Below are positions 921-15,298 of a stretch of 64,000 nucleotides of DNA, in pieces. A model generated the notes under the pieces. The model made no database searches. It saw nothing but the letters and a program-made list of their open reading frames with translations, and had not been told where the DNA came from. Every line of letters starts with the position of its first letter. The first letter of the stretch is position 1. Both the position numbers and the translations under genes were made by a program. Origin of the DNA: an uncultured Cytophagales bacterium (lineage in GTDB: Bacteria > Bacteroidota > Bacteroidia > Cytophagales > UBA9547); the NCBI GenBank assembly GCA_945957555.1, contig CAMFLX010000011.1, positions 1 through 64,000 on the forward strand, in the 5' to 3' direction.

Positions 921-946
921 TTACCTCGGTCTGTGGCACACCATGG
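921..946. repeat. Degenerate copy of dispersed GGTCTGTG palindrome
   Basis: CGGTCTGTGGCACA followed by CCATGGAA matches the left arm and outer right arm of the palindrome at 2104-2134, but the inner right arm (CAGA) is missing. This looks like a deletion derivative of the same small repeat family. Confidence 0.55.
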
Positions 947-1029: not shown

Positions 1030-1773
1030 TTATTTAGTAACATCCTTGTCCGATGCTGTGTCCTGTGGCGATTTGGCACCCGAACTCGGTACTGTGATGA
1101 TGGATCGGAGGTAATCAAACACGTACTCAGAGCTTTTGGCCTTGTTGTCGCTGTAGATCGCCTGAGCGTCGTCGAGCATGCTGCGAAGATCTTTATAGAT
1201 CTTGTTATTGGCCTTGATCTTCTCATTAGTACCATGGCTGATCTCTTCCCCTGTACCTATGTACAAGTCGAATACGGTCTCAAAATTCTTCACAGAGCCC
1301 AGATACTGCTCCTGAAAACCCTCCGGCATGTTTTCGTTAGCCAGCAAGTCTGCCTTGTTGGCTGCAAGAAAGTTAGTTCCTGAGATGTTCAAGCTAGACA
1401 GAGCCTTCCAGTTAGACTTAGCAGCATCGGCATAGTAGCCTTTGCCAGCGGCTTCGAGTTTGGGCTTGGCCAGCTCTTCGGGATAGGCATGCTCAATGTA
1501 CCGCGACAGACTCCTCCAGCAGTTAATACATTCATTTGCGATAGTTAACAGTTGGATACGGTGACTTTCGGAAGCTTCGTCTCGGGCTTGAAAGTCGTCT
1601 AACGCTGCGGCCGTCTTGATCTCAGCGATGCGAGTTTCATACAAACTAGGCTTGTAAAAGCCTCTAAAACTGCTGAAGTCAGCAAGGTCGTTTTTGAATT
1701 TGCCCCAGGCAATGCGGGCAATGGCGTAAAGTTCTCCTTGAGAACAGCCATAATTGCGAGATTCAGTTTTCAT
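1030..1773 (-). CDS. Uncharacterised helical protein
   Basis: The gene encodes a 247-residue soluble protein with no signal peptide, membrane segment or catalytic motif that I recognise. It is rich in Ala, Lys, Glu and Asp, and most of it should be alpha-helical. The N-terminal half contains NECINCWRSLSRYIEHAYPEE (about residues 80-100). The C-terminal half has a helical stretch (EKIKANNKIYKDLRSMLDDAQ) followed by a polar, probably disordered tail ending SDKDVTK. I have the impression that related hypothetical proteins occur in other Bacteroidota, but I cannot name a family. A clear terminator follows the stop codon, so it is probably a single-gene transcript. Its start is the only ATG before an A+T-rich leader. 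Base use is more G+C-rich than the flanking spacers, consistent with a real gene. Confidence 0.75.
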   Translation of the reverse strand: MKTESRNYGCSQGELYAIARIAWGKFKNDLADFSSFRGFYKPSLYETRIAEIKTAAALDDFQARDEASESHRIQLLTIANECINCWRSLSRYIEHAYPEELAKPKLEAAGKGYYADAAKSNWKALSSLNISGTNFLAANKADLLANENMPEGFQEQYLGSVKNFETVFDLYIGTGEEISHGTNEKIKANNKIYKDLRSMLDDAQAIYSDNKAKSSEYVFDYLRSIITVPSSGAKSPQDTASDKDVTK

Positions 1774-1858
1774 AAAAATCTATTAGATATTTAAATATAA
1801 AACGATTTTTTAGAAAATTTATTGTGTCATTTTATATTTTTTTATTAAAAAATGAAGC

Positions 1859-2100
1859 GAGAGGCATTTGTGCAGATGTTTCGGAGATCTCTGCGAGCAT
1901 TTCGGGGATTTGTGCGAACGATTCGGAGATCTCTGCGAGAGTTTCGGAGATTTGTGCGGACGATTCGGAGATCTCTGCGAGCGTTTCGGAGATTTGTGCG
2001 AACGATTCGGAGATCTCTGCGAACGTTTCGGAGATTTGTGCGAGCGTTTCGGAGATCTCTGCGAACGTTTCGGAGATTTGTGCGGACGATTCGGAGATCC
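1859..2100. repeat. 21-bp tandem array, stop-free in six frames
   Basis: Units begin with TTCGG at 1880, 1901, 1922, 1943, 1964, 1985, 2006, 2027, 2048, 2069 and 2090, exactly 21 bases apart. The last unit is partial and a degenerate unit precedes the first. Two subtypes alternate: one reads GATCTCTGCGA after TTCGGA, the other GATTTGTGCG. The higher-order period is therefore 42 bp. Each unit encodes a heptad in whichever frame is read. On the minus strand 1832-2137 gives 101 residues of AQISETF/AEISESL-type heptads that would form an acidic coiled coil. On the plus strand 1868-2152 gives FGDLCER heptads, and other frames give very basic peptides. No frame has a convincing ribosome-binding site, so I list it as a repeat rather than as a gene. 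Confidence 0.85.
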
Positions 2101-2103
2101 ATT

Positions 2104-2134
2104 TTCCATGGTCTGCGTGCCACAGACCATGGAA
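2104..2134. repeat. Perfect 12-bp-arm palindrome (GGTCTGTG family)
   Basis: TTCCATGGTCTG (2104-2115) and CAGACCATGGAA (2123-2134) are exact reverse complements around a 7-base loop. The element sits 3 bases beyond the last array unit and 35 bases downstream of the restriction-modification gene's stop. It could act as a transcription terminator or mRNA-stabilising hairpin for that gene, but lacks a T run. Related copies are at 921-946 and 27241-27263. Confidence 0.75.
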
Positions 2135-2168
2135 CAATGTGTTGACTTTTAATTGCTTTAATTAATTT

Positions 2169-14674: not shown

Positions 14675-15298
14675 GTTTGAAACCATTTAACCTGAGCTGC
14701 GGAAAGCGTTGTTGTTTTTAACAATACCTTCCTACACTTGTATAGGAGCATCTCCAGTTTTGATTTCAGGAAAATACAGTTGTACGAGAGCTCCTCCAAT
14801 TTGGAGTTGTAGGTATACAGTTGTATAATAGATCCTCCAATTCTGATTTTGTGAAAATACAGATGTATGAGAGCACCTCCAGTTTTGAGTTGCTCTCATA
14901 CAGTTACGGGACAGCAACTCTGGTTTTGAGTTATCTTCTTACTCATGAGGTAGACCAGTTCCTCCATTAAACTTTTTATAACATCTAAAACAAAAAGTCA
15001 ACCTCAATGAAGCTGACCTTTGACAAATCATTAACTGAACAATATATAAGGAATATTTTTACTATTAAATTGATGAGATTTGATAGATTCTGAGTGCAAT
15101 TTACAGATCATTTTGAACTTAATCGTTTCTAAATCGTTATGATACTATTATCAATTTATGTGATTTTCTGCACCTAAAAAATATGGGGCCAATAATATAA
15201 TTAAATCGACATAAAATATGATAATATTTGCTAGTAGCAATTAAATTGTTAAATTTGTGGCTACTAGTTTATAAGCACATCTCTTATATTACAAATTA
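14675..15298. other. Intergenic: 42-bp tandem array and A+T-rich leader
   Basis: This 624-base region between the AraC and DUF4290 genes contains a degenerate tandem array (14731-14930) and then about 370 bases of very A+T-rich DNA. I see no convincing gene. Small frames through the array change composition with each copy and have no start context. Confidence 0.6.
14731..14930. repeat. Degenerate 41-42-bp tandem repeat
   Basis: Copies are anchored by CTCCA at 14752, 14794, 14835 and 14877, and by the variant CTCTG at 14918, giving spacings of 42, 41, 42 and 41 bases. The shared pattern is CTCCAnTTTTGA, then about 10 bases, then AAATACAGTTGTAT and a purine-rich end. A half copy precedes the first. 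The period is twice 21, as in the array at 1859-2100, but the sequence is unrelated. Confidence 0.75.

Follow-up and report, generated by a model that had tools for sequence, protein, structure and literature searches.

A 21-bp intergenic tandem array in an uncultured Cytophagales bacterium, probably a non-coding minisatellite, and the intergenic arrays that share its period

The stretch of DNA analysed here (the window, 64,000 nucleotides from an uncultured Cytophagales bacterium) carries a tandem array of 21-bp units that is best read as a non-coding intergenic minisatellite that was spread in the form of a seed and then lengthened by 21 or 42 bp at a time; we put the probability of this reading at about 0.8. 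The array lies between two genes and fits the description of a minisatellite, with tandem units of about 10-100 bp outside genes. The preliminary description of this DNA had named a minisatellite as its fallback, and it is this fallback that fits best, the tests for coding and for RNA being unfavourable. The array most likely makes no product. A single array of this kind is ordinary, but the class to which it belongs is less so: non-coding repeats have no codon reason for a length of 21 bp, yet in this genome the step is common to about half of the intergenic arrays and to the majority of those with strong scores.

TRF places the array at 1866-2099, either as 10.6 copies of a 21-bp period or as 5.6 copies of a 42-bp period (score 377). 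Ten complete units, at 1880-2089, are bordered by partial units at 1866-1879 and 2090-2099; TRF and the reading of the units agree on this composition, which had been described before. Each unit consists of a core, TTCGGAGATYTSTGC, and a variable 6-bp linker, as judged by the conservation of the columns. The units are of two subtypes, A (GATCTCTGC) and B (GATTTGTGC), distinguished by CTC/TTG, and the alternation that had been noticed earlier is strict across all ten (ABABABABAB). Adjacent units have an identity of 0.79 (lag 1) and every second unit one of 0.93 (lag 2), so the real repeat, the unit that was amplified, is the 42-bp dimer. The GC content of the array is 51.5%, against 28-31% in its flanks. 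As claimed in the preliminary description, there is no stop codon in any of the six frames over 1866-2100. The extent of 1832-2137 given there stands for the open frame only; the repeat itself occupies 1866-2100, and the segments 1832-1865 and 2101-2137 are non-repeat ends of the ORF. The unique spacers that separate the repeats of a CRISPR array are absent, the units being contiguous and the 6-bp linker too short and only partly variable. The features of the window are collected in Table 1.

Table 1. Features at and around the array, in positions of the window
Feature	Position	Strand	Basis or remark
21-bp (42-bp dimer) tandem array	1866..2100	none	TRF, unit reading, column conservation, alternation
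Type IIG restriction enzyme-methyltransferase gene, 1085 aa	2169..5426	-	PADLOC REase_MTase_IIG, E = 0; Pfam N6_Mtase PF02384
Hypothetical protein gene, 247 aa, no family match	1030..1773	-	Downstream of the array, same strand as the type IIG gene
Hairpin, arms TTCCATGGTCTG / CAGACCATGGAA, 7-nt loop, core GTGCCACAGACC	2104..2134	none	Arm pairing
Open frame across the array, 101 aa, TTG start; judged spurious	1832..2137	-	ORF list; six-frame tests
Second intergenic array of the same kind, period 41-42, 3.7 copies	14733..14892	none	TRF, period survey

The type IIG gene lies upstream of the array on the minus strand. The best PADLOC model for its product has 1271 positions and the match ends at 917, while a single type I-like specificity domain is found at 937-1069; the C-terminal part of the product may thus differ from the model. 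The 101-codon minus-strand frame does begin 31 bases past the stop codon of this gene, as had been observed, and PADLOC and Pfam now assign the restriction-modification (R-M) gene to type IIG. The TTG with which the frame starts sits at the edge of the hairpin. The palindrome reported 3 bases from the array is also exact: the arms of the hairpin, 2104-2115 and 2123-2134, are 12 bp each and 100% complementary, and they lie 3-4 bases beyond the array. Copies of the GTGCCACAGACC core are found at 928-939 (minus) and 2117 (plus), in inverted orientation, on either side of the hypothetical gene and the array. The GTGCCACAGACC hairpin element recurs in a few places elsewhere in the genome (L022, L024 and L025, at ~1500), with different stems. 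The hairpin beside the array is probably a separate interspersed element.

The genome is a draft of 6.25 Mb in 413 contigs. The genome-wide search for the unit that had been proposed as a check was run and gave three further loci: C44:20891-21034, a site around C271:1675-1760, and the end of contig C339. The C44 array is located between a gene for a beta-helix protein and a convergent hypothetical gene, near ilvC, and the C271 array adjoins argH. No R-M gene was seen near the array at these two loci, where the neighbours are readable on both sides. Since the C339 array is cut by the contig end, further copies may be hidden in gaps of the assembly. Read side by side, the flanks of the four unit loci look unrelated, and three of the arrays begin with ATTTGTGCA. 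Units are more alike within a locus (identity 0.894) than between loci (0.856; p = 0.02), as expected of local expansion after dispersal. Between loci the 15-bp core is far more conserved than the 6-bp linker, and from this pattern the core could be a bound site. The host genome also encodes a type IX secretion sorting domain, which points to a member of the Bacteroidota.

Outside this genome the array has not been found. None of the nine other genomes of the family (none of them congeneric) and none of the 389 other genomes of the order has an array of the unit, and viral contigs, phages and plasmids are likewise without one. A lone unit in genome G210 (L027; E = 1.8e-4 over 390 genomes) is a possible but uncertain occurrence. 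The exact dimer pattern has only three matches in 84,980 species genomes, each of two copies and each in an unrelated bacterium (Gemmobacter, a Clostridia MAG and an Oligoflexales MAG); these are taken as chance duplications. In an iteron-type replication origin, direct repeats of about 17-22 bp lie next to an initiator gene; the scanned neighbours encode no Rep-like product, no plasmid matches, and the sites of arrays next to argH and close to ilvC speak against such an origin. In the open-access literature searched, no direct report of the unit or of 21-bp intergenic repeats in Bacteroidetes was found, an absence that is weak evidence of novelty.

A survey of periods in 864 kb of the same genome, in which gene calls are simple ORFs and the labels intergenic and coding are thus approximate, places the array in a larger class. 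The period is 21 or 42 in 19 of 38 intergenic TRF arrays, or in 17 of 36 without the window, which was picked for its array; half of the remaining sampled stretches are contig starts, which may favour repeats. Of the 19 intergenic arrays in this sample with a TRF score of at least 100, 17 have a period that differs from 21 or 42 by no more than 2 bp. The same step is seen in pairs of repeated intergenic 8-mers within 130 bp of each other, 49% of which are separated by multiples of 21, while about 5% would be expected if distances were even. In coding arrays, the period is a multiple of three in nine of 13, and five of these nine are multiples of 21. The number of open frames in arrays of the class ranges from none (four arrays) to six. 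In 300 kb of E. coli K-12, none of three intergenic arrays is of the 21/42 kind. Smaller samples from four other genomes of the order gave 6/18, 2/8, 3/14 and 3/11 arrays of this kind, the bias being weaker or less clear there. Extrapolated to the whole host genome, about 20 arrays per Mb would amount to an estimated total of roughly 130.

Even though these arrays have a common period, their units are mostly unrelated. In a comparison of 25 units from the sample of this genome, two pairs of loci have an identity of 17-19 of 21; outside those pairs, the resemblance between units from different arrays does not exceed that between shuffled units (shuffled maximum 14). Dispersed families of units do exist, one at five loci, another at two and the window family at four, so that the class shares its period and shares sequence only inside small dispersed families. 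When the FGDLCER repeat, the plus-strand frame +0 reading of the window unit, was searched as protein in all six frames, 59 of 390 genomes of the order gave matches; the matching DNA consists of 21-bp arrays with differing units. In many of them the matched frame is interrupted by stops, while some are probably coding. A bolder reading, less likely than not, is that this lineage of Bacteroidota has about 100 or more intergenic arrays, mostly of unrelated sequence, whose common 21/42-bp step could be set by a specific mechanism of duplication or by selection that keeps the DNA phased over two turns, the class then being defined by its period and not by its sequence. The testable question that this raises is whether a step of replication or repair sets a preferred duplication length or the phasing of the DNA is selected.

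A small protein of rapidly varying length had been offered as one possibility for the array. Such a protein would vary by whole heptads and consist of ISETFAQ repeats (minus strand, coiled coil) or FGDLCER repeats (plus strand). All frames are open, the minus frame would give a plausible coiled coil and matches generic coiled-coil families weakly, below the cutoff, and the CTC/TTG difference between subtypes is synonymous (Leu) in frame +0. For that frame a uniform mutation model predicts a synonymous fraction of 0.23, whereas the raw value is 0.54. However, the readability in six frames comes from a single repeat unit without stop codons and does not point to a protein. Once a 21-mer is free of stops, its tandem repetition is automatically open in all frames, which makes openness weak evidence. 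Stop-free sequences make up about 15% of simulated random 21-mers at 52% GC, about 5% of shuffles of the unit's own letters and about 2% for a 42-mer. Because the openness essentially counts as a single event, nothing is gained as evidence from how long the open frames are. The high raw synonymous fraction arises from inherited variants that are counted repeatedly, mainly the CTC/TTG pair, and it vanishes once each variant codon is counted once, when no excess is left and no frame stands out among the six (4/15, 2/14, 1/16, 3/15, 4/16 and 1/14, with 4/15 for frame +0). Neither the synonymous excess nor the frame kept in related copies that would mark a coding heptad repeat is thus found, the C271 array having a TAG in frame +0 and the C339 array a 1-bp deletion. 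The position of the minus-strand TTG at the hairpin edge and the stops in most or all frames of other arrays of the class also speak against the proposal. Coding by the array is unlikely, and a heptad-repeat protein of the kind proposed very much so. Repeat arrays open in six frames are easily misannotated as heptad proteins.

Among non-coding alternatives, a helically phased binding or structural element is unlikely but the least improbable. In such an element all units would turn one side of the helix towards a nucleoid, partition or regulatory protein, and their spacing would be maintained by selection. A length of 21 bp corresponds to two helical turns, as well as to three heptamers. The period stays near 21/42 over arrays of mostly unrelated sequence, the 15-bp core is conserved while the linker varies, and arrays of exactly 21/42 have many mismatches and very few indels (for example 53:0 in L155 and 88:2 in L148). 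The scarcity of indels could reflect selection on spacing, but in-register recombination could suppress them too, and detection that prefers ungapped arrays could have the same effect. Most arrays have no common unit sequence, which fits no single sequence-specific protein, and dyad symmetry, at p < 0.05 in only 4 of 52 units, does not characterise the class. The intergenic lists of the host genome contain no periods of 31-32 or 52-53 bp, three or five turns, which argues against phasing as the whole cause. Less probable still is a structured RNA or transcription attenuator that the array and the hairpin would make up together, downstream of the R-M gene. What stands of the RNA proposed earlier is a modest excess in folding energy (z = -2.7 on the plus strand and -2.2 on the minus strand), together with a perfect 12-bp-arm hairpin near the stop codon of the R-M gene; the separate hairpin was included in the fold and itself adds to it, it has no T run and is absent from the list of the terminator scan, no Rfam family exceeds its threshold (gathering score) for the array region, and other arrays of the unit adjoin unrelated genes and lack this hairpin. 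There is an equally slim chance that the array is part of a larger element bounded by the inverted GTGCCACAGACC cores. The cores at 928 and 2117 do flank the 247-aa gene and the array, and Porphyromonas gingivalis offers a known case of an element of this type that contains a minisatellite (PMC4596501). Ends of this sort are, however, missing from the C44, C271 and C339 arrays as far as their surroundings were read, and the 3 kb around each of the GTGCCACAGACC copies at C95, C202 and C310 is free of tandem arrays. Inspection of the two outer edges by eye showed no target-site duplication.

The non-coding minisatellite has its closest parallel in BrickBuilt of P. gingivalis, a 23-nt minisatellite in a MITE with a leader, a tail and IS5-like terminal inverted repeats (PMC4596501). 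Both are imperfect, non-coding intergenic arrays of Bacteroidota with a unit near 21 bp, and the presence of one repeat family at several intergenic loci, four for the window unit, is also shared. A shared leader and tail and terminal inverted repeats of the BrickBuilt type were not seen in the flanks of these four loci, and while BrickBuilt has one unit family, this genome has several with a common 21/42-bp period. The 41-nt tandem repeats of PgRS/MITE464 lie inside a MITE with terminal inverted repeats and, as described in PMC4596501, are unreported outside P. gingivalis; they resemble the present array, by description and not by sequence, as tandem repeats of Bacteroidota with a unit close to 42 bp. 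Direct repeats of TAACTGA and other heptamers occur in Beggiatoaceae, Cyanobacteria and some Bacteroidetes (PMC4679880), and, as cited in PMC4679880, Mrazek 2007 found that in most genomes no category of long simple repeats is as abundant as the heptanucleotides. They are similar in being abundant, intergenic and scattered over lineages, 21 is 3 x 7, and a few 7- and 14-bp arrays exist in this genome too. The units here, however, are of 21 or 42 bp and on average have no hidden 7-bp sub-period, the identity at lag 7 being 0.277 in units of the class and 0.281 in shuffles.

A minisatellite of this kind would arise when a short piece of repeat is copied to a new intergenic site, a step suggested by the loci of one draft assembly. 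Slippage during replication, or unequal recombination, would then make the array grow or shrink in place by 21 or 42 bp at a time and so spread variants in register, and the 42-bp AB dimer would be the last unit amplified at the window locus. Any influence on the neighbouring genes would be exerted through spacing or local properties of the DNA.

Two kinds of repeats met in other genomes of the order are distinctive. In several genomes of one family, 21-bp arrays (L083, L088, L098, L091 and L085) have a unit like AGTTCACCAAAAAGGTGA, which in L088 is hairpin-like, unlike most of the class. Three clusters of repeats in L131 (genome G038) have a period of 65-68, of which about 30 bases are constant, and resemble CRISPR arrays.
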